In this document: one piece after another, positions 18,299-60,027 of the stretch | Position numbering within the stretch: position 1 is the stretch's first letter | Layout of the letters: each line of letters opens with the position of its first letter | Assembly: GCF_033807715.1 (NCBI RefSeq) | Contig: NC_084597.1 | Location: 6,369,847 to 6,433,846 of the forward strand | DNA: 64,000 nucleotides | Source: Cololabis saira | Lineage: Eukaryota; Chordata; Actinopteri; Beloniformes; Belonidae | Direction of reading: 5' to 3' | Made by a program: the position numbers and the translations under genes | Notes under the pieces: model-generated | Seen by the model: only the letters and a program-made list of their open reading frames with translations | What the model was told of the DNA's origin: nothing | The model's database searches: none

Positions 18299-19255
18299 AA
18301 ACGTAAAGGCAAAGAGAGGCCCACAGGTTACCCCTGTGATCAGTGTGAGGAAGTCCTCACCACTTCATCATCCTTGAAGGGACATAAGAAGATTCACACT
18401 GGAGAGAAGCCGCACCTATGTGATCAGTGTGGAGCTGCTTTTGCCAGATTAGATCATTTAAGAAATCACCAACGTATTCACACTGGAGAGAAGCCGTACA
18501 GATGTGATGAGTGTGGGGGAGCTTTTACCACATCAGATGCTTTAACTAAGCACTACCGTGTTCACACTGGAGAGAAGCCGTACAGATGTGATCAGTGTGG
18601 GGCAGCTTTTACCAGCTCAGGGGATTTAACTAGGCACTACCGTGTTCACACTGGAGAGAAGCCGTACAGATGTGATCAGTGTGGGGCAACTTTTGCTCAA
18701 TTGAATGCTTTAACTTCGCACCACCGTGTTCACACTGGAGAGAAGCCGTACAGATGTGATCAGTGTGGGGGAGCTTTTACCACACCAGGTGCTTTAACTA
18801 GGCACAACCGTGTTCACACTGGAGAGAAGCCGTACAGATGTGATCAGTGTGGTGCAGCTTTTACCAACTCAAGTAATTTAACTTCGCACTACCGTGTTCA
18901 CACTGGAGAGAAGCCGTATAGATGTGATCAGTGTGGGGCAGCTTTTACCAGCTCAAGTGAGATAACTACGCACCAACGCATTCACACTGGAGAGAAGCCG
19001 TATAGATGTGAGCAGTGTGGGGCAGCTTTTACCCAAACAAGTGCTTTAACTACGCACCAACGCATTCACACTGGAGAGAAGCCGTACAGATGTGATCAGT
19101 GTGGTGCAGCTTTTACCAACTCAAGTAATTTAACTAGACACTACCGTGTTCACATGGGAGAGAAGCCGTACAGATGTGATCAGTGTGGGGCAGCTTTTAC
19201 CCAATCAAGTAATTTAACTAAGCACTACCGTGTTCACACTGGAGAGAAGCTGTAG
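18299..19255 (+). CDS. C2H2 zinc-finger protein, terminal exon, 11 fingers (unit A)
   Basis: The exon starts in phase 0 after the acceptor, with KRKGKERPTGYPCDQCEE, and needs an upstream exon for its start codon. It encodes eleven C2H2 fingers with TGEKPY linkers (one is MGEKPY), so the protein is a nuclear sequence-specific DNA binder. Helix residues at -1, 2, 3 and 6 from finger 1 on: TSSG, RDHN, TDAK, SGDR, QNAS, TGAR, NSNS, SSET, QSAT, NSNR, QSNK. The frame stops at a TAG (19253-19255) where unit B continues with a final finger, so a point change has shortened the array. No KRAB, SCAN or BTB domain is visible. It may be functional, since ten or more fingers remain. Confidence 0.85.
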   Translation, partial: KRKGKERPTGYPCDQCEEVLTTSSSLKGHKKIHTGEKPHLCDQCGAAFARLDHLRNHQRIHTGEKPYRCDECGGAFTTSDALTKHYRVHTGEKPYRCDQCGAAFTSSGDLTRHYRVHTGEKPYRCDQCGATFAQLNALTSHHRVHTGEKPYRCDQCGGAFTTPGALTRHNRVHTGEKPYRCDQCGAAFTNSSNLTSHYRVHTGEKPYRCDQCGAAFTSSSEITTHQRIHTGEKPYRCEQCGAAFTQTSALTTHQRIHTGEKPYRCDQCGAAFTNSSNLTRHYRVHMGEKPYRCDQCGAAFTQSSNLTKHYRVHTGEKL

Positions 19256-20082: not shown

Positions 20083-21259
20083 CGGTGTTGTGCAAGTTCA
20101 TACTTTTCATGAACTAGTTCAAAGTTCAGTTCACATAGTTTAAAAATGAACAGTTCACATTCATAGTTCACCATTTTCACTTTGAACTAAGTTCAAATTC
20201 ATTTAATTTCAATATTTTTAGGTGAGGAGTACGAATGAAACGCCAGACTGTCCTAAAAACTGTTGTAGTGGTCTTCAACCCTGGTCCTCAGGTGCCCTGT
20301 CCTGCATCTTTTAGATTTTTCCTTGCTCCAGCACCTTGATAAAAATGACTGTCATTAACAGACTTGCGCAGACCTGGATGACAAGCTGATGATGACCATT
20401 AATTAGAATCAGGTGTGATGATGCAAGGAAACATCTAAAACATGCAGGACAGGGGTCCCGAGGACCAGGGTTGGAGACCACTGCTGTGTACAATCATGTA
20501 TTGTCCTAGTGGCTTTTCAGCTTTACTCAGGCTGTAAATCTCCAACATTGTAGTCCATTATTAATGTGTCTACCTGTTGCAGGTAAATCAAACCCCTGAA
20601 GGTGCAGCAGTGGGACTGGGGTCGTTTGGGGCTGTTGGGTCTTCTTGGCCTTTCCTGATGACTTTTTTTTGATTGTCAAGGACTTGCAGATATTTTCTCA
20701 CACTGGACAGATGCTTTGACTCCACATGACGTTTTGAATTTAGTAGGCAAACGTTTGGACTTGTTTTCTCAGCGCAGGTGGACATAATTTGCTTAGAAAG
20801 GTTAGATTTTTACCTTCGGACTCTTTGGGAGACAATGTGTAAAATTCACGCAAATAATCATAAGCGGAGGCGTCATCTGACGCTGCGTCTGCAACGTCTC
20901 TCTCTTCACTGGTCATGTAAAGACTGCACCGAGCTCGGGCCGCCGTTGCCATGGAGCTGGTGCCCATCGTTATGCTAGTGTGCACTGCATTGTGGGTAGT
21001 GTAGTGTGAAGTCGTTGTCTCGTCGAGTATTTTAAATGTCCGCGCCACCCGCTGGTGAAATGAGAAGGATTATTCCGTAATAATTGGACCTAAATACTGA
21101 AACTGAAACTCACATAATCTGAACAGTTAAAATTCCAGTTCTTGATTTGCAGAATTAACAAGTTCACGTTCTAGTTCTTTATTTGCAAATACGTTGCGTT
21201 CAGTTCAACGTTCTCACAGAAATGAACGTGTTCAATGAACGCGTTCATGCACAACACTG
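20083..21259. mobile_element. Boundary hAT element, complete (unit A/B junction)
   Basis: The inverted ends are CGGTGTTGTGC and GCACAACACTG. Flanks CCGGAGAG (20075-20082) and CTGGAAAG (21260-21267) match at six of eight bases, a worn TSD. There is no intact transposase; short readings in it are unremarkable. It marks the duplication boundary. Confidence 0.88.
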
Positions 21260-38479: not shown

Positions 38480-39427
38480 AAACGTAAAGGCAAAGAGAGG
38501 CCCACAGGTTACCCCTGTGATCAGTGTGAGGAAGTCCTCACCACTTCATCATCCTTGAAGGGACATAAGAAGATTCACACTGGAGAGAAGCCGCACCTAT
38601 GTGATCAGTGTGGAGCAGCTTTTGCCAGATTAGATAATTTAAGAAATCACCAACGTATTCACACTGGAGAGAAGCCGTACAGATGTGATCAGTGTGGTGC
38701 AGCTTTTACCAACTCAAGTAATTTAACTAGGCACTACCGTGTTCACACTGGAGAGAAGCCGTACATATGTGAGCAGTGTGGTGCAGCTTTTACCACATCC
38801 AGTGCTTTAACTACGCACCAACGCATTCATACTGGAGAGAAGCCGTACATATGTGATCAGTGTGGTGCAGCTTTTACCACATCAAGTGCTTTAACTACGC
38901 ACCAACGTATTCACACTGGAGAGAAGCCGTACAGATGTGATCAGTGTGGGGGAGCTTTTACCACATCAGGTGCTTTAACTGGGCACTACCGTGTTCACAC
39001 TGGAGAAAAGCCGTACAGATGTGATCAGTGTGGGGCAGCTTTTACCAGCTCAGGGGATTTAACTAAGCACTACCGCGTTCACACTGGAGAGAAGCCGTAC
39101 AGATGTGATCAGTGTGGGGCAGCTTTTACCGGCTCAGGGGATTTAACTATGCACTACCGCGTTCACACTGGAGAGAAGCCGTACAGATGTGATCAGTGTG
39201 GGGGAGCTTTTACCACATCAGGTGCTTTAACTACGCACCAACGCATTCATACTGGAGAGAAGCCGTACAGATGTGATCAGTGTGGTGCAGCTTTTACCAA
39301 CTCAAGTAATTTAACTACGCACTACCGTGTTCACACTGGAGAGAAGCCGTACAGATGTGATCAGTGTGGGGCAGCTTTTGCCGTATCGAGTACTTTAAGA
39401 AAACACCAACGTATTCACATTGAATAA
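38480..39427 (+). CDS. C2H2 zinc-finger protein, terminal exon, 11 fingers (unit B)
   Basis: The exon starts in phase 0 at the acceptor CTTTCTTTACAG and ends at TAA 39425-39427 with KHQRIHIE. It needs an upstream exon for its start codon. It has eleven C2H2 fingers with TGEKPY linkers. Helix residues -1, 2, 3, 6: TSSG, RDNN, NSNR, TSAT, TSAT, TGAG, SGDK, GGDM, TGAT, NSNT, VSTK. Only fingers 1 and 2 are plainly collinear with copy A; the interior is reshuffled, so the two paralogues should bind different DNA. The end is probably ancestral, because the sequence after the stop in copy A still encodes this last finger. It acts as a nuclear DNA-binding protein; no effector domain is seen in the window. 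Confidence 0.88.
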   Translation, partial: KRKGKERPTGYPCDQCEEVLTTSSSLKGHKKIHTGEKPHLCDQCGAAFARLDNLRNHQRIHTGEKPYRCDQCGAAFTNSSNLTRHYRVHTGEKPYICEQCGAAFTTSSALTTHQRIHTGEKPYICDQCGAAFTTSSALTTHQRIHTGEKPYRCDQCGGAFTTSGALTGHYRVHTGEKPYRCDQCGAAFTSSGDLTKHYRVHTGEKPYRCDQCGAAFTGSGDLTMHYRVHTGEKPYRCDQCGGAFTTSGALTTHQRIHTGEKPYRCDQCGAAFTNSSNLTTHYRVHTGEKPYRCDQCGAAFAVSSTLRKHQRIHIE

Positions 39428-40148: not shown

Positions 40149-41312
40149 CAGTGTTGTGCGAGTTCATACTTTTCATGAACTAGTTCAAAGTTCAGTTCAC
40201 ATAGTTTAAAAATGAACAGTTCACATTCATAGTTCACCATTTTCACTTTGAACTAAGTTCAAATTCATTTAATTTCAATATTTTTAGGTGAGGAGTACGA
40301 ATGAAACGCCAGACTGTCCTAAAAACTGTTGTGGTGGTCTTCAACCCTGATCCTCAGGTCCCCTGTCCTGCATCTTTTAGATTTTTCCTTGCTCCAGCAC
40401 CTTGATAAAAATGACTGTCATTAACAGACTTGCGCAGACCTGGATGACAAGCTGATGATGACCATTAATTAGAATCAGGTGTGATGATGCAAGGAAACAT
40501 CTAAAACATGCAGGACAGGGGTCCCGAGGACCAGGGTTGGAGACCACTGCTGTGTACAATCATGTATTGTCCTAGTGGCTTTTCAGCTTTACTCAGGCTG
40601 TAAATCTCCAACATTGTAGTCCATTATCAGCTTGTCTACCTGTTGCTGGGAAATCAACCCCCTGAAGGTGCAGCAGTATTTGGGACTGGGGTTGTTTGGG
40701 GCTGTTGGGTCTTCTTTGCCTTTCCTGATGACTTTTTTTTGATTGTCAAGGACTTGCAGATATTTTCTCACACTGGACAGATGCTTTGACTCCACATGAC
40801 GTTTTGAATTTAGTAGGCAAACGTTTGGACTTGTTTTCTCAGCGCAGGTGGACATAATTTGCTTAGAAAGGTTAGATTTTTACCTTCTGACTCTTTGGGA
40901 GACAATGTGTAAAATTCCCGCAAATAAGCGGAGGCGTCATCTGTTGCTGCGTCTGCAACGTCTCTCTCTTCACTGGTCATGTAAAGACTGCACCGAGCTC
41001 GGGCCGCTGTTGTTATGCTAGTGTGCACTGCATTGTGGGTAATGTAGTTTGAAGTCGTCGTCTCGTCGAGTATTTTAAATGTCCGCGCCACCCGCTGGTG
41101 AAATGAGAAGGATTATTCCGTAATAATTGGACCTAAATACTGAAGCTGAAACTCACATAATCTGAACAGTTAAAATTCTATTTCTTGATTTGCAGAATTA
41201 ACAAGTTCACGTTCTAGTTCTTTATTTGCAAATACGTTGCGTTCAGTTCAACGTTCTCACAGAAATGAACGTGTTCAATGAACGCGTTGTCAAGTTTCCA
41301 TGCACAACACTG
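40149..41312. mobile_element. Boundary hAT element, third copy
   Basis: Ends CAGTGTTGTGC and GCACAACACTG. The left flank CCGGAGAG is that of copy B. The right flank is CTGGAAAT and then ERV gag, different from copies A and B. A small insertion (tgtcaagtttcc) sits near the right end. This is the outer edge of the array. Confidence 0.88.
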
Positions 41313-41319: not shown

Positions 41320-41489
41320 TTTGCTGCGTCATGTCCAGTGAAGTCACCTTGTACACGTCCAAGTCTGTGCCCATGTTTTTTACTGACTACATGAAGCACC
41401 TCTAAGCCATTCAGGTGAAAGCTGTTCATCAATTCTACTAAGTCAATTGCGAACTGGTCGGCATCCTGAAATGGGTCTGCAAGACCATC
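41320..41489 (-). pseudogene. ERV gag relic, capsid part (left of the retroelement)
   Basis: This is the reverse complement of 53345-53515, identical by eye over about 165 bases. It encodes ADPFQDADQFAIDLVELM and GHRLGRVQGDFTG, resembling the start of a gamma/epsilon-type capsid. It ends at the TSD CCATC (41485-41489) of the LTR element; the rest of gag resumes at 44785. Confidence 0.88.
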
Positions 41490-41823
41490 TATAGGAGCCA
41501 AATATGCTGTTATTCACTGTGTGTGTCCGTGGGTGGCGCTGTGTTTTAGCTGAGCCACAGGTATAAAGGTGACTACGTCACGTCTGCTTGTTAGATGTTT
41601 GGCCCGGAAGGGCAAAAGGTTTTTGACCGGTGTGGCGCTAAACCTGCGAAACTTCATGCTTTGTTTGAGAGCAATAAACACTTTTAATTGCATCAGAAGA
41701 AAGCGTCCTGGCTCGTCCGTCACCGCCGGGGAACGTGGGCAGCAGCAGCCAAAAGCGCGTCGACCAGATCTCCCGGTCAAACATTCTCAGTAGCCTAAAG
41801 CATTGGGCTTGGCTCCTTCAACA
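41490..41823 (+). repeat. 5' LTR of the BEL/Pao-type element
   Basis: It contains TATAAAG (41562-41568) followed by the CRE-like tgactacgtcacg, and AATAAA (41673-41678). It ends TTCAACA. It lacks the initial TG present in LTR2. No clear tRNA primer-binding site was recognised just downstream. Confidence 0.92.
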
Positions 41824-41937
41824 TTAGTCAAAAACTTTCCCGCGCTCCTGTGCAGAGTCCTGCGGAGAACCCTTGTTGTGAAACGGCATTGTGTTTTGGG
41901 GATTTAACTCAGAGATCAGCAGTGGTGTCCTCCAAGC

Positions 41938-44295
41938 GTGCAGGTAACGGCTCTCCAAGCCAGAGGCCTTAGGATAAAGGGGAAAAGCGGCACGAACGAT
42001 GCGTATGCCGTTATACAAGTGGGAAAGGAGAAGTACCAGACGTCTGTGGTGGAAAAGAGCGTTGCCCCGGTGTGGAAGGAGGAGGCCACCTTCGACCTGC
42101 CGCTTCTCCAGCAGGGAGGCGGAGGAGGCGGCGCAGAGCGCTCCAGGCTGCGGGTCCATGTCCTGCACCGGGCTCTGGTAGGCCCAGACAAGCTGCTGGG
42201 GCCGGCTGTCATCAACCTGCTGCAGCTCTGTGAGGACAAAACCCACCTCAAGACGGAATGGTTTAAGTTACTTGACAAGACTGGAAAGCCAGACAAAGAC
42301 CGAGGAGAGGTGCTTCTGGACATCCAGTTTATGAGAAACAACATGAACGCCAGCATGTTTGATCTCTCTGCTGCTGGGAAATCTCGTTCTCGCCTTGGCA
42401 AGTTCAAAGACAAAGTACGTGGCAAGAGAAAGGAATCGGACTCGACGTCCAGTGTACCGTCTTTCACTCAGGTTATCACGGATAGTGAGGAGGAGGGAGA
42501 TGGAAATGCCGAGGGAGCAGCAGGCAAGGATGGCAAATCCAAGAAACACAAGATTAAGTCTTTGTTTTCTCCAAAGTCCAACCTGCAGAGAAACAAGTCT
42601 CAGTCCATGTCTGTTCTGCCTGCGAAAAAACCCTCACTGAGTGGCAGCCAATCATCTGGTCTAAACATTGAGTCCTCTGAAGGAAAAAAGTTCAAGTTTA
42701 TGATCCATAAACGCTCCGGCAGTTCAGGCAACAAGGATTCATCACTGGGTCATCAAAAACAGGTTCCTTCAGAGCAGAGTAACTTGTGCATTAACGGAAG
42801 CCATGTTTACTGTGAAGAGCCGCCACCTCGGACCTCTCGCGTTGGCTCCAACTTCAGTCTGGCCAGTTCAGGACACGGATCAATCGAGGATGTCCCTGAA
42901 AGCTCTCCTCCATCTGTGGATTCACTAAAAGCTGTGAGGCAGTATTCACCCTGGATGGAAGAAGAAGAGGAGGAGGAGGAGGAAGTGAATGGTGAAAGTA
43001 TAAAAGAGGATGTTAATGAATCAAGAAGGGAAGAACAAGAAAGAAACAGGATGCAGGAGGAAATTAAGAATAAAGAGAGAGAAGAGGCTCTAAAGAGACA
43101 ACAAGAGGAGCTTGAGTTATTAACTAAGGAAAAAATTCTGTTTCTGAAAGAAAAGGGGGTTTGCTTTGCATGTTTGGGCGTTGGTCATATGAGTCGTGAG
43201 TGTGAGAGACACTTAACATGCAAGGTATGTGGTCAAACTCACCCCACTGTGCTTCACATCAGAAAGCAACCAGCTCAGGATATGTTGGACGCATCTAGCC
43301 AGACAACACCAAACGAAATATGTGGAAATACAGGGGCCGGTAAGGACCGGTGTGCTTTGTCCATTCTCCCGGCGAAGGTTAAAAGTGTAAAGGGAAATCG
43401 CATCATAAAAACCTATGCCTTCTTGGACCCGGGTAGTTCAGCCACGTTCTGCTCAGAGCATTTAATGCGGAAGCTTAATGTCACAGGCAGAAGAACCAAC
43501 TTCCTGTTGAGCACAATGGGGCAAAAAACTGTTGTTCCAGCCTACTCATTGGCTGGTTTGGAGATATCTGATCTGGACAGCAGTAACTTTCATGATCTCC
43601 CAGAAGTTCTCACCCAGAAGAAAATGCCAGTCACTATTAATAACATGGTGACATCAGAGGAACTGGCAAAATGGCCATATTTGTCCAAGGTGAACATCCC
43701 AAGCGTTAAAGCAAATGTCGACCTGTTAATTGGAACCAATGCTCCCAAGATACTGGAACCTTGGGAGGTTATTAACAGTTGCGGGAAAGGCCTGTATGCC
43801 ATCAAGACAGTGCTGGGATGGGTCGTTAATGGTCCACTGAATGGTAACAGTGGTGCTTCGGAGGCGGAGCGTCCCCAGGAGGAGAAAACGATCGCTGAGC
43901 AGGTGGAGAGCTTCAGACAGGAGAAGTGCAAGCTCGATGCCGAGGTCGCCAAGTGGGATTACAAAGGCAACGATATCATTGTGCTCGCCAAGCAGATGTG
44001 TAGGATCATGATGGAGATGACGGACTTCACCAGAGGCAAAGGCCCCCTGAAGAACTCTTCAGATGTGATCAAAGCAGCCAAGTACCAGAAAGTTTACGGG
44101 ACAGCTGCAGTCAACTCACCTGTGGTGCCGTGGTGCATGAAGACCCTAGGGAAGAAGCCTCTGGTAAAAAGCGTGAAGCCGCAGGAATGCCAGACGCATG
44201 GCCGACGAGGCTTACAAAAAAGACAAAAAAAACCCCCAGATAAACAAGGGCTTGTGCGTTCCGTGAGGCTACAAACAAAGCCAACATTATTATAA
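41938..44295 (+). CDS. Chimeric ORF: Rab11-FIP1-like C2 region, BEL/Pao Gag knuckle and protease, alpha-catenin C-terminus
   Basis: One open frame of 785 codons; it is open from about 41911 but its first in-frame ATG is at codon 132, so N-terminal initiation is unclear. Residues 1-125 are a C2 domain (ARGLRIKGKSGTNDAYAVIQ, APVWKEEATF) that in Rab11-FIP1 binds membrane lipids; FIP1-like sequence runs to ~340 (RNNMNASMFDLS, QSMSVLP, LCINGSHVY). A Glu-rich coiled coil follows. Residues 409-440 hold two zinc knuckles (C409, C412, H417, C422; C428, C431, H435, H440). D497 in FLDPGSSATF is the BEL/Pao protease aspartate. From P646 the sequence is alpha-catenin (KCKLDAEVAKW, GNDIIVLAKQM, MEMTDFTRGKGPLKN). 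At 715/716 about a hundred alpha-catenin residues are skipped. The Rab11-binding C-terminus of FIP1 is absent. The host parts are intronless, so they came from mRNA. Confidence 0.9.
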   Translation: MQVTALQARGLRIKGKSGTNDAYAVIQVGKEKYQTSVVEKSVAPVWKEEATFDLPLLQQGGGGGGAERSRLRVHVLHRALVGPDKLLGPAVINLLQLCEDKTHLKTEWFKLLDKTGKPDKDRGEVLLDIQFMRNNMNASMFDLSAAGKSRSRLGKFKDKVRGKRKESDSTSSVPSFTQVITDSEEEGDGNAEGAAGKDGKSKKHKIKSLFSPKSNLQRNKSQSMSVLPAKKPSLSGSQSSGLNIESSEGKKFKFMIHKRSGSSGNKDSSLGHQKQVPSEQSNLCINGSHVYCEEPPPRTSRVGSNFSLASSGHGSIEDVPESSPPSVDSLKAVRQYSPWMEEEEEEEEEVNGESIKEDVNESRREEQERNRMQEEIKNKEREEALKRQQEELELLTKEKILFLKEKGVCFACLGVGHMSRECERHLTCKVCGQTHPTVLHIRKQPAQDMLDASSQTTPNEICGNTGAGKDRCALSILPAKVKSVKGNRIIKTYAFLDPGSSATFCSEHLMRKLNVTGRRTNFLLSTMGQKTVVPAYSLAGLEISDLDSSNFHDLPEVLTQKKMPVTINNMVTSEELAKWPYLSKVNIPSVKANVDLLIGTNAPKILEPWEVINSCGKGLYAIKTVLGWVVNGPLNGNSGASEAERPQEEKTIAEQVESFRQEKCKLDAEVAKWDYKGNDIIVLAKQMCRIMMEMTDFTRGKGPLKNSSDVIKAAKYQKVYGTAAVNSPVVPWCMKTLGKKPLVKSVKPQECQTHGRRGLQKRQKKPPDKQGLVRSVRLQTKPTLL

Positions 44296-44448
44296 GACCA
44301 GTGACAAAGCTCTGTTTGGTTCATGGAGCATAGATTTGTTTGTCTGCACTGTATTTATCATAACTTGGTTATAACATTTTTGGCTCTTTTCTTTTGTTTA
44401 TTTTTAGAAATTGTTATGTCAGGTCTGCCATTAACAATTAGGGGCCGG

Positions 44449-44784
44449 TGTATAGAAGCCAAATATGCTGTTATTCACTGTGTGTGTCTGTGAGTGGCGC
44501 TGTGTTTTACCTGAGCCACAGGTATAAAGGTGACTACGTCACGTCTGCTTGTTAGATGTTTGGCCCGGAAGGGCAAAAGGTTTTTGACCGCTGTGGCGCT
44601 AAACCTGCGAAACTTCATGCTTTGTTTGAGAGCAATAAACACTTTTAATTGCATCAGAAGAAAGCGTCCTGGCTCGTCCGTCACCGCCGGGGAACGTGGG
44701 CAGCAGCAGCCAAAAGTGCGTCGACCAGATCTCCCGGTCAAACATTCTCAGTAGCCTAAAGCATTGGGCTTGGCTCCTTCAACA
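44449..44784 (+). repeat. 3' LTR of the BEL/Pao-type element
   Basis: It begins TGTATAGAAGCC and ends TTCAACA. TATAAAG is at 44523-44529 and AATAAA at 44634-44639. It is about 98% identical by eye to LTR1. Confidence 0.93.
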
Positions 44785-45150
44785 CCATCAGCAGCTTTCA
44801 TCATTTCATCTTTGGACCACGCTCGAAAAACCATAATGGTCGGGTTGTCATCACCACCTTGACCGTAACGCGTATTAGCCACCTGGATTAATGGACAATT
44901 CAGGTCGGTGGGGGGCGCGGCACATCCTGGGTCAGATTCAGAGTCAGAGTCTGAGCCGGATCCCGAAGACCTCCCGCCGACGCCAAGATAACCACCACTG
45001 AAACCTGTCGACAGTCATCGCTGAATAGCCATCTGCAGTGCCAAAATCCTGGGACGTGAATTCATCCCAGGTCGGTGGCCTTAGTTTGGTCCTCGACGGC
45101 GGTGGGAGGCTGAGGGATCAACGAACTCAAAACCAGTGATCTCGGAAAGG
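44785..45150 (-). pseudogene. ERV gag relic, N-terminal part (right of the retroelement)
   Basis: Minus-strand reading: a serine/aspartate run (SDSDSESDPG), GDDNPTIMVFRAWSKDEMM and, upstream, a PPTW-like region with a frame break. It matches 53170-53345 with about two differences in 170 bases. The homology to 53128 stops near 44975; beyond that it extends further upstream than the plus-strand copy. Confidence 0.8.
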
Positions 45151-48457: not shown

Positions 48458-51400
48458 ATGTTGTTCTTTGCTCTTGTCATGCTTTTGTTAACTGGGTGGG
48501 ACTCTACTACTAGTGACAACTGTCAGACATACGACTTGAAAGAAGAAATGTCTCAGTTGGTCACTCCAAGGGGTGAAACCCTTGTTTATGGTGTTCCATC
48601 CCAGTCTCCACTCCATTGTGTCCCTAACACTCTCAGCTACGCAGTCTTTGCAAGTTGGCGGCAGCTTCTCAGCCTCCTTGTCCTAAAAGACTGCTGCACA
48701 ATCACCTCTGTGGACACTCTCCTGGACGTCATAACCTTCAATGACTCCAAACCTCGACTGACCCCTCCATCCATGGCTAAAAAGAGACTGTTTGTCCTTT
48801 TAATGCTTTTGATTTCTGGAAATATTCACTCAAATCCTGGCCCCATGTCTGGTCCTACCATTTGTAACACGCCAGATGATTTTAAAAACATGCATGGGTT
48901 ACGCTTCATTCATATTAATGCACGCAGTCTCCAACCTAAGATGGATATGATGCGTATTTGGGCTGAATCGACTGGTGCACATATTATTGTTGTCTCCGAA
49001 ACCTGGCTCTCAAAGTCCATATTAGATAGGGATGTTGCCATAGATGGGTTTGATATCTACCGCACTGATCGTCCTCGTAGAGGGGGGGGCGTGGCCATCT
49101 ATGTCCATCTATGTTCAGATCATTTCTCGCTGCTCATGTCCTGCTTTCTACATCTGCTAGTAAACAATTTGAACTGTTAGCCTTGAATGTAGATTTGTCT
49201 GGAGGTCAGCACCTAACTGTTGTTGGCTGTTACAGGCCTCCACCAGCCCCCTCAGACACACTGTCTTCTTTAATGCAGCTCCTGTCTCAGCTTCATTCTA
49301 ACGAAATTGTCCTCCTAGGGGACCTAAATTGGGACTGGCTCTCCTCAGCTTCAGATGACTTTAAAGCCCATTGCCTGTCTTTTGATTTCACTCAAATCAT
49401 TGAAGGTCCCACTCGGCTTAATCCCAAACGACTGGACAAATCAACGCTTCTTGACCTACTCATCACTAACAGGCCTCACAAATTCACGGCATCCAGTGTT
49501 TTTGCTAATGATCTCAGTGATCATTGTGTGATCGGAGCTATCAGGGATTGTAAAATCCCCCGTTCTAAGCCCCGTATCGTTCACAAGAGAGATTTGAAGA
49601 ACTTCTCAGAGCAAGCTTTCCTCCACGACCTGCAGCAGTTTCGATGGGACCGCATTTTCCTGATTGGTGATGTTCACCTTGCCTGGAACTACTTTTGTGA
49701 CAGTTTCACCTATCTCATTAACAAGCACGCTCCTTTCCGGCGCTTCAGGATTAAAGGTCGGAACACTCCCTGGTTCTCTAGCGAGCTGTCCTCTCTCCTT
49801 CACGAAAGGAACCGGCTTTGGGCTGTTGCCAGGAAATCCGACTCTGAAACCGATTGGCTTTCTTTTCGGCAGGCTAGAAATAGCTCTACTGCCTCCATCA
49901 AAAAAGCTAAAAATGACTTCTATCTTTCCTGCTCTACTGACAGTTTGAATGATCCTAGAAGATTTTGGAAGACTGTTAAGTCTCTCTCTGCCAACTCTGG
50001 CCCTGCTGAGCTACCTCCTCATATCATCCATGACTCAGTACCAGTGTTCGATAAATCAGAGATGCTTAATTGCTTCAACAAACACTTTATAGCCTCTGGT
50101 TCATTATTTGATTCCTTGCCAGGAGCCAACTCTCCACCCCCCAGTTCTCCTCCTCCTTTGGGGATGGCCTCCGGTAGTCTCCCTGGGCATCACTCCTTCT
50201 CGTTCTGCCATCTCACTGTTGGTGATGTTTGGAAAGTCCTGAGGGAGCTCGACCATAGGAAATCAGCAGGTCCTGATAATCTTCCCCCTTTCTTTCTGCG
50301 CCTTGCTGCAGACTTCATTGCAGAACCTGTTTCGCACATCTTTAACTTATCCATCGCCAACAACGAGATCCCAGAGGTATGGAAATCTGCCTTTGTGGTC
50401 CCACTCCTGAAGGGTGGTGACCCCAAATGTTTGAACAACTACAGGCCAATTTCCAAACTTCCTATTCTTGCTAAGGTTCTTGAGCAATTAATCAATGTAC
50501 AGATCAAGGACTTCCTGGACTTACACAATATCCTTTCACCCTTGCAGTCTGGTTTTAGGAAGCAGCACAGCACAGTATCCGCTGCTCTTAAAGTGGTCAA
50601 CGACATCACTGAGGCCTTGGACAGGAAGAACCACTGTGCCGCACTCTTTGTCGACTTGTCAAAGGCATTCGACACCGTCGACCACTCCATCTTATGTCAG
50701 CGCCTCTCGGACATTGGTTTTTCCTCCCATGCTGTTGGCTGGTTTACAAACTACCTGTCTCAGCGTAAACAGGCTGTGCAGTTTGGTGATCTGTCCTCCA
50801 ACATGCTTACTACCTCTAATGGGGTGCCACAGGGTTCGGTCTTAGGGCCAACCCTATTCACCATTTACATAAATGAAATAGGATCAACCTCAAATGCTGC
50901 TGTTCATCTTTACGCGGATGATACAATTATGTACTGCTTTGCTTCTTCGATCTCCCGTGCCTTGGAGTCTCTACAGACTGCTTTTGACACCCTTCAGTCC
51001 CAGTTGTCTCAGCTTAGACTGGTGGTGAATGCAGGGAAGACCAAGGTCATGCTCTTCTCCAACAGCAAGCAGGCGTCAGCGGCACTTCCTGGCATTGTGT
51101 CTTGTCAGGGTACACCTATTGAGATTGTGTCAAACTACAAATATCTTGGCGTTGTTCTTGACGACACTCTCACCTTCCAACTTCACATCAATATGCTCTT
51201 GAAGAAACTGAAGTTGAAACTGAGCTTTTTCTTCAGAAACAAGTCCTGCTTTTCAGCTCTTGCTAGGAAACGGCTGGTTACTGCCACCTTCTTGCCTCTT
51301 TTGGACTATGGTGATGTCCTCTACATGAATGCATCTGCAAGCTGTCTCCAACTTCTGGATGCTGCGTACCATGGAGCGCTGCGCTTCATAACCGGTTGTA

Positions 51401-52045
51401 AACCACTTACACACCATTGTGTGCTTTACTGTCTGGTTAACTGGCCATCTCTTTCCATCCGCCGAACCCTCCACTGGTACACTCTCATTTACAAATCCAT
51501 TCTTGGTCTGCTCCCACCCTACCTCTCTGTCTACTTTTCACGCAAGCAATCCAGATACGCTCTCCGTACGCAGGATATCATTACTTGCTCCATCCCCTTG
51601 GTCCGCACAGAGAAAGGCAAAAGGGCGTTCTCTTTTGCAGCCCCGTCCGCTTGGAACTCCTTGCAACAGAGTCTGAAGTTGACGAACCTGATTCCCCTTG
51701 CTAGTTTTAAGCTTTTGCTTAGAGACATGGAGAGTGCATCTTTATCTTGTACTTGCACTAGATGACCTCTGCCGCAGCTAAGCATTTAAAGCACATAAGC
51801 TAGTCTGTGTTCTACAAGTTTTATTTTTGTCTGGGGCTAGTGTACTAACCTGATATCTCTATTTTCCAGCTATTTAACGGTTATAGTGTATTGTCATTTC
51901 CACTCTGCATCAGTTTCAAGTGTTATGTCCTGTCATATCTTGTCATGTCTCATTTTTATGTTTTATGCAACTGTGTGGATGTGAACAGGTCACACTTGAA
52001 AATGAGTCTTCGGACTCAAGTGTTTTATCTGTATAAATAAAGGAT
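48458..52045 (+). pseudogene. CR1/L2-group LINE, nearly intact, one frameshift
   Basis: The frame from ATG 48458 runs to about 49110 and carries a hydrophobic start, SGNIHSNPGP and the endonuclease start (FIHINARSLQPKMD, SETWL). It then shifts into a frame ending at 51765: endonuclease end (GDLNWDW, LSDHCVIG), reverse transcriptase (NNYRPISKLP, FVDLSKAFDTVDH, GVPQGSVLGPTLF, YADD encoded at 50911-50922) and the C-terminal domain. The break coincides with an imperfect 10-bp tandem copy, ccatctatgt, at about 49096-49115. The 3' end is an AATAAAGGATAAATAAA tail. Apart from the shift, I noticed no stop in about 1,100 codons, so it is young. It encodes no RNase H. Confidence 0.88.
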
Positions 52046-52740: not shown

Positions 52741-53751
52741 TTTTGTTTAAGACATTTGAAGAAGAAAAGAAAAGTAGAATTAAAGGTCCATTATGGATTT
52801 TCTGAGCAGTGGCTGAAGAGACGAGAGGAGGAGGAGAAAAAGAAAGCTGAAAAAATAAATGCAATGATAAAAGACGGAGAAACCGTGATGTTGAGAACAG
52901 TAATAGGGGACGCCCTAATGACCAGTCGGACTCTGACTTAACTGACCAAAACGAACCTGAGACTGCTAAAACGAATACGCGTGACTCCCGTAAGAATTGT
53001 AGGGATTCTGTTAAACTGAAAAAGATCTCGAAACATGCTTTTCCTGCACCATCTCGGGTTCAACAAACCCAAGACGTAAAAACAAAACAAAGTTGAACCT
53101 CGCAAACAGAAGAAAGAGCTGTAACCTGTGTCCGACCTTAAACAAATAAAACAAAAACCTGGATATGGTAAGGCGGATTCAGACTCTGACTCTGAATCTG
53201 ACCCAGGATGTGCCGCGCCCCCCACCGACCTGAGTTGTCCATTAATCCAGGTGGCTAATCCGCGTTACGGTCAAGGTGGTGATGACAACCCGACCATTAT
53301 GGTTTTTCGAGCGTGGTCCAAAGATGAAATGATGAAAGCTGCTGATGGTCTTGCAGACCCATTTCAGGATGCCGACCAGTTCGCAATTGACTTAGTAGAA
53401 TTGATGAACAGCTTTCACCTGAATGGCTTAGAGGTGCTTCATGTAGTCAGTAAAAAACATGGGCACAGACTTGGACGTGTACAAGGTGACTTCACTGGAC
53501 ATGACGCAGCAAATCCTCCAGTGATTTTACCTACTGACTCTCAGGCCTTGACCAAAGCAGTAACACGGTTAAACAATCGCATTATTACGACCTTCTGTAG
53601 GGGAGCAGACTACACCCGTATTGCGGTATGCAAACAAAGGGATCCAGAACATGCTGAAGAATACGTAGTTCGTTTAGAAGCGGTTTTCAGGCATAATTCT
53701 GGCATTCCTTATAACCCCGCTGTTTTAATCAACATCAAACCCAGCTTTTAA
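52741..53751 (+). pseudogene. ERV gag relic (plus strand)
   Basis: A first open piece (52786-52941) encodes a basic, charged segment (QWLKRREEEEKKKAEK) like a matrix region. After stops, 53128-53751 encodes a Ser/Asp run, PTIMVFRAWSKDEMM, the capsid region ADPFQDADQF...LGRVQGDFTG and a later AVCKQRDPEHAEEYVVRLEA block resembling the major homology region. It stops early at 53751. No nucleocapsid, protease or pol follows. It is an almost identical inverted counterpart of the gag split by the LTR element at 41490. Confidence 0.82.

Positions 53752-58860: not shown

Positions 58861-60027
<1,167 letters not shown>

Follow-up and report, generated by a model that had tools for sequence, protein, structure and literature searches.

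A non-autonomous BEL/Pao-type element of the saury genome with spliced pieces of Rab11fip1 and alpha-catenin-2

The capture of host genes by long terminal repeat (LTR) retrotransposons is a known kind of event in both plants and animals, and we describe here an element of the saury, Cololabis saira, in which pieces of two host mRNAs are joined to BEL/Pao sequence (positions 41490..44784 of the window, the 64-kb stretch of DNA analysed, C11:6369847-6433846). The closest plant system, Bs1 of maize, is without its polymerase. Fragments of three host genes are carried in this LTR retrotransposon, for which a reference title names a hybrid open reading frame and a new chimeric gene is reported (PMC13317346, PMC5408686). 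In LTR-mediated retroposition, which is reported from mosquito, zebrafish, chicken and Drosophila (Tan et al. 2016, Genome Research, as cited in PMC5408686), host mRNA is joined to parts of LTR elements by template switching at short similarity, on a model in which the reverse transcriptase acts in a particle that has packaged an mRNA (PMC5408686). Crocodilian endogenous retroviruses (ERVs) have captured host mRNA as well, KIT ligand in CrocERV29 and nectin3 in CrocERV31, usually with loss of internal viral genes (PMC4299795). In the parts drawn on, a paper on DNA transposons names LTR-element template switching by reference alone (PMC8277862), and the one capture mentioned in a paper on BEL/Pao elements is that of env from retroviruses (PMC3118150).

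The saury element resembles Bs1 in holding pieces of several host genes within one LTR element, in this case pieces of two genes in one frame, and differs from it in superfamily (BEL/Pao), in its animal host and in the genes concerned; a sibling copy orders the events in the saury, whereas the chimeric gene of Bs1 has no supported counterpart there. The initial annotation had likened the two, and the multi-gene design bears the comparison out, but the kind of event is already documented in animals (PMC5408686, PMC4299795). As in LTR-mediated retroposition, spliced host mRNA lies between element sequences, the difference being that two unrelated genes are present in one element that has been remodelled stepwise. 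The crocodilian cases are likewise vertebrate LTR elements with captured host mRNA, but they are retroviruses with long captured coding sequences reported to be under purifying selection, whereas the saury pieces are fragments in a BEL/Pao element with no such selection shown. With fish BEL/Pao elements it shares LTRs, a 5-bp target site duplication (TSD), zinc knuckle, protease and pol tail, at 93–94% identity over 43126-43875, but it is without reverse transcriptase or integrase, and host sequence stands where the 5' portion of gag would be. No description in print was found in the literature searched, a partial set with the key metazoan survey outside it, and as far as that search goes this particular case is new. 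We put at about 0.9 the probability that this is a non-autonomous BEL/Pao element built by successive template switches of a reverse transcriptase, its open frame being likely a remnant and not a working gene.

The element, its LTRs and its BEL/Pao relatives

Coordinates are window positions, on the forward strand unless stated. The element is bounded by two 334-bp LTRs (41490..41823 and 44451..44784), identical at 328/334 positions with six differences, and by the motif CCATC on either side (41485..41489 and 44785..44789). An empty site, a copy of the target without the interruption, lies in the same window on the reverse strand (53301..53420), in agreement with the inverted repeats there. 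The two ~0.33-kb LTRs and the 5-bp TSD of the initial annotation both align, but its designation of the target as an ERV gag found no backing, the 207-codon target frame (53128-53751) matching nothing in Pfam even with E allowed to reach 10; there were also no Rfam matches at gathering scores across the 64-kb window. Chance is excluded as the source of the combined LTRs, TSD and empty site and of the gene matches described below (best E 7e-240).

The 5' LTR starts with TATAGG and finishes with AACA, with a TATAAA signal at 41562 and AATAAA at 41673. In the BEL family copies compared (the window element and the copies L010 and L013) the inserted 5' end is TATAGG, whereas the TG next to the 3' LTR closes the polypurine tract (44449-44450 in the window) and is not the first dinucleotide of the LTR. 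That the 5' LTR start is mutated was considered and rejected because the four compared relatives (L010-L013) also start with TATAGG. Directly after the LTR the element keeps a 12-nt leader, TTAGTCAAAAAC (41824..41835), presumed to be the primer-binding segment and similar to the leaders of L010 and L013. A TGG start is typical of tRNA primer sites, and the leader does not have one. Leader nucleotides complementary to GGTTTTTGAC in the LTR (41618-41627, downstream of the TATA box) number 9 in the window element, 9 in L010 and 10 in L013, complementarity that was equalled in 51, 7 and 2 of 2000 shuffles, respectively, with the leaders of L010 and L013 taken from a few bases inside the LTR and that of the window element from one base too late. 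A self-priming start, as in Tf1, is possible.

The gag (zinc knuckles) and protease segment (43126..43875) is 93–94% identical to five BEL copies (L002-L006), around which larger stretches (L010-L014) were taken. L010, 94% identical to the BEL segment of the window, has LTRs that are 100% identical and spaced 7.4 kb start to start, and an undivided 2039-codon frame. Searched as four pieces, this frame gives matches above the Pfam cut-off to DUF1759, Peptidase_A17 (9.4e-47; Pfam's Pao retrotransposon peptidase) and DUF5641, and below it to RVT_1, Integrase_H2C2 (integrase zinc-binding) and rve (integrase core). The LTR pairs of L013 and L012 are 100% and 99.7% identical, with spacings of 7.3 kb and 6.4 kb and target duplications AATAT and CTACT, respectively; the L013 frame is split into two parts, and no target duplication was seen at L010.

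From such relatives the window element retains only the zinc knuckles, the protease, and, at 44235..44450, the last part of pol (PDKQGLVRSVRLQTK), the 3'UTR and the polypurine tract (GGGGCCGGTG). The Pfam matches in its frame run in the order C2, CCHC, aspartyl protease (Asp_protease_2) and Vinculin/alpha-catenin, the CCHC and protease matches being weak and both below the cut-off; this is the order of Rab11-FIP1-like, BEL/Pao and alpha-catenin parts that had been proposed. The only long frame of the element has no match to a reverse transcriptase or integrase, which makes it a non-autonomous derivative and not a full member of BEL/Pao. Judged from its sequence it is a BEL/Pao-type LTR retrotransposon of that non-autonomous kind, because it has paired LTRs, a 5-bp TSD and internal homology to an element with a Pao-type pol, L010, whose Peptidase_A17 match upholds the original assignment.

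Against the LTRs of L010-L013 those of the window element show ~83% identity, and no other place found exceeds 90%. Several positions that differ in L010-L013 are alike in the window element and the sibling described below. A genome search with the LTR listed 41 matches, with 40 of 72 candidates scored, and its numbers are lower bounds. Among the 39 matches besides the element's own two, 28 loci with 1.5-kb flanks held no Rab11fip1 or catenin sequence (0/28), and the BEL 3' part was present in 5 of them. Eleven of the 41 listed matches fall within 3 Mb (C22 29.4-32.2 Mb); the BEL 3' part is absent from the 1.5-kb flanks of all eight examined there, which would be solo LTRs, 5' LTRs or a duplicated block.

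Captured mRNA pieces, their joins and the order of capture

The first captured piece (41832..43133) is Rab11fip1 mRNA, comprising 5'UTR, exons 1 and 2 and part of exon 3. The parental exons lie on the same chromosome (C11:26480048-26480505, 26487147-26487572 and 26487654-26488115), and the two GT..AG introns between them are missing exactly from the element. Aligned to the three joined exons, the piece has 35 mismatches in 1303 bases, a 1-nt 'insertion' being an effect of the chosen exon 2 boundary, and a 29-nt deletion that takes out the parental ATG. The matching product is saury protein P0001 (96% identity over 51% of the 785-codon frame discussed below), many of whose fish relatives are called Rab11 family-interacting protein 1 while others carry unrelated automatic names such as trichohyalin; sources use both a and b as the paralogue letter. 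The C2 domain match falls in this part of the frame. A whole-genome search with the piece returned the element, the three gene exons and three weak places (6/6 candidates scored); within the reach of this search, the assembly has one Rab-bearing element.

The second piece (43868..44224) derives from spliced alpha-catenin-2 mRNA with internal deletions, its right end being uncertain inside an A-rich run. Its parental exons lie on C1, and their introns are absent from the element; both host pieces lack introns, as the initial annotation had it. One deletion junction (44074..44082) joins exon C to the last exon at a GCAGC repeat. The whole-genome catenin search (6/6 scored) found the window element, a second element at C20:12260437-12261033 (L009), the C1 gene and, more distantly related, a place on C7 with 81% identity. 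Over 43 codons of the last catenin exon (44083-44200; 6880-7020 in L009) both elements depart from the gene alike, with 9 synonymous and 3 nonsynonymous shared changes; the remaining exons have 2 synonymous and 2 nonsynonymous in 62 codons. Descent of this divergent stretch from a paralogous catenin was rejected, as besides the sibling only the C1 gene, 84% identical there, was found.

The Rab11fip1 piece starts right behind the 12-nt leader and passes from the middle of exon 3 into BEL gag at 43126-43133; the BEL/catenin join is at 43868-43875, and catenin gives way to BEL pol near 44214-44235. At three of these joins the parental sequences share a short run: AAAC (4 nt) between leader and Rab11fip1, AAGGAAAA (8 nt) between Rab11fip1 and gag, and AGCTTCCC (8 nt) between BEL and catenin; at the window's extra catenin deletion 5 nt (GCAGC) are shared. 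A shared run of at least 8 nt would be expected at a random join with a probability of ~1e-4, and one of at least 4 nt with ~0.016. Template switching by the element's reverse transcriptase, already proposed in the initial annotation, is favored by the mid-exon ends, the sense orientation, the lost introns and these joins at short similarity. The junctions had been placed near 42958, 43860 and 44080: the first is about 170 bases off, the glutamate-rich run past 42958 being Rab11fip1 exon 3; the second is close; the third is the internal catenin deletion, so that the final catenin/BEL join had been missed.

The sibling L009 consists of BEL gag and protease, a catenin piece and the BEL 3' part, with ordinary gag where the window element carries Rab11fip1. 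Its catenin piece is longer, covering residues 583-838 of P0235 except for a gap and drawn from five exons without their introns. The catenin frame of L009 contains a stop, its 3' LTR is interrupted, and no 5' LTR was detected. L009 and the window element share a loss at CCAAG from the last catenin exon, the join from catenin through the A-rich run to CAGATAAACAAGGGC of pol, and 16 substitutions over 105 compared codons. Of what the initial annotation named as refuting it, half is seen: within the single assembly that was searched, the Rab piece stands in an element at one locus only, but the catenin/BEL 3' join recurs on C20, and the LTRs and TSD align. The two elements do not share the left catenin border, BEL sequence reaching 43875 in the window but only ~43615 (by eye) in L009, where catenin starts further upstream, which implies at least one more switch or deletion. 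The shared junction and deletion at two loci show that catenin was captured first and that the product has been copied at least once. As L009 has gag in place of Rab11fip1, the Rab11fip1 capture is, by parsimony, most simply the younger.

These comparisons suggest a sequence of events. A piece of spliced alpha-catenin-2 mRNA first entered a BEL element, and the chimera was then copied, as the junction and deletion at two loci show. In the lineage of the window the catenin piece lost more at a short repeat, and its left border is unlike that of the sibling; the place of this step in the order rests on parsimony. The structure shows a switch of the reverse transcriptase from gag to spliced Rab11fip1 mRNA at AAGGAAAA and a return at AAAC to the element leader, presumably as the next step; the 5' gag part was lost by it, but not the LTRs, the leader of 12 nt or the polypurine tract. 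The chimera was then inserted with a 5-bp target duplication, reverse transcriptase and integrase having necessarily been supplied in trans, presumably from a full-length BEL/Pao relative with an undivided frame.

The LTRs of the element have diverged by 6/334 = 1.8% (interval 0.7–3.9%), and the Rab piece differs from its gene at 14/266 = 5.3% of synonymous sites (2.9–8.7%; Fisher p 0.022 against the LTRs). A Rab capture older than the present insertion would fit this synonymous excess, but polymorphism of the gene explains it equally, making this a weak argument.

The open frame and competing explanations

The open frame extends over 785 codons (41938..44295) with a GTG as the tool's start; the first in-frame ATG is at 42331 (654 codons). 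There is no ATG before codon 132, and a product from 42331 would be without the C2 domain. Six ATGs precede the one at 42331, counted downstream of the TATA box with transcription start inferred. The frame does not keep to that of L010, and its stop falls inside the pol tail. The reported frame is thus open over the full interval given, but it has no ATG start and no convincing constraint as a fused gene.

Several observations weigh against an account by template switching that left only coding remains. All four joins (4/4) are in frame with both parents, an outcome of about 1 in 81 if each has a chance of 1 in 3, and the Rab part differs from its gene by 14 nonsynonymous and 14 synonymous changes in 398 codons, a dN/dS of 0.28 that could mean some constraint, in a figure that mixes the gene branch and the element branch. 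The catenin/pol join lies in an A-rich run without clear microhomology. The cluster of synonymous differences in the last catenin exon, common to both copies, is a further such point. When all Rab coding differences (28/1197) are compared with the LTRs there is no difference (p 0.68), and the single Rab-bearing copy leaves mobility after that capture unsupported.

The first of these points bear on an improbable alternative, that the frame encodes a selected Gag-like fusion protein in which Rab11-FIP1 and catenin pieces accompany zinc knuckles and protease, as a new particle part or a host gene. Openness across 785 codons, the in-frame joins and the Rab dN/dS all speak for it, as do the small indels inside the Rab, BEL and catenin parts of the frame, which are of 3 or 6 nt apart from the 1-nt exon-boundary effect; by rough inference, about one new stop is expected in so young a copy, so the openness says little. 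For the BEL part, dN/dS against L010, L011 and L013 is 0.38, 0.39 and 0.41, with the partner branches included. Of the 14 Rab residue differences, six are changes in the element at residues on which the gene and 6/6 outgroups agree, three look like changes in the gene and five are ambiguous. For catenin, 9 nonsynonymous changes and 1 synonymous fall on the window branch, and 4 and 3 on the sibling branch, two three-state sites having been set aside; the 9:1 ratio shows no difference from an assumed neutral nonsynonymous share of 0.76 (p 0.47). The altered Rab residues and the catenin ratio argue against a selected protein, as do the deleted parental start codon, the C2 domain left outside any product, the departure from the L010 frame to a stop within the pol tail, and the single copy with a sibling whose frame is broken.

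No protein joining BEL with Rab11-FIP1 or catenin was found among 240 listed proteins (the best 120 of 887 and the best 120 of 1866). Fifteen fusion candidates, 11 with BEL matches running past residue 670 and 4 with matches starting before residue 370, were examined and rejected, as their identity over the host parts is low and 0/15 match catenin or Rab11-FIP1 at E 0.01; the 11 on the catenin side have 6–12 matches in 29–44 residues of 646-720 (17/75 in P0161), and the 4 on the Rab side 8–17 matches in 30–75 residues of 320-395. A working fusion gene is unlikely given the lost ATG, the six upstream ATGs, the catenin ratio and the single Rab-bearing copy. A bolder form of the idea is decidedly improbable: that a BEL/Pao lineage in the saury makes a fused Gag-like protein with Rab11-effector and alpha-catenin pieces flanking the zinc knuckle and protease, the in-frame joins reflecting selection and the host pieces directing particles toward recycling endosomes or toward cell junctions. 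The most likely reading of the open frame is that of young remnants left by coding sequences that were joined in frame.

That the host pieces are instead processed pseudogenes of Rab11fip1 and catenin, made by a LINE (long interspersed nuclear element) and brought into a BEL element at the DNA level, or the result of a genomic rearrangement, is very improbable. The introns are absent, and the catenin piece ends in an A-rich run as a processed copy might, though before the stop codon of the gene; the Rab piece, by contrast, ends mid exon without poly-A, begins directly behind the element leader and shares 4 and 8 nt with the element at its ends, the catenin piece starts mid exon with 8 nt shared, and no free-standing pseudogene of either gene was found in the genome searches, all candidates having been scored. 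An assembly chimera or misjoin, suggested by Rab junctions at one place in the one assembly searched, is barely credible in view of the aligned TSD and LTR pair with its six differences, the empty site, the differences that separate each piece from its gene and the catenin/BEL 3' junction at an independent second locus.

Neighboring features and significance

Elsewhere in the window, repeats of ~20 kb are arranged near-tandem in 1-41300 (for example 1-300, 20210-20509 and 40276-40575 at 99%), and within them are C2H2 zinc-finger frames at 18374-19255 and 38555-39427. An 884-codon frame (49111-51765) has the look of a LINE endonuclease/reverse transcriptase, and the frame at 59309-59905 contains a calmodulin-like EF-hand stretch; the frames named in this paragraph were recognized by eye.

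In this young case one genome contains the parents of each segment, the empty site, a sibling that represents an intermediate stage and full-length relatives as well, and their presence together lets the order of the captures and the short similarities at the switch sites be read. The element adds a vertebrate BEL/Pao case with pieces of two genes to those known from plants and from ERVs.

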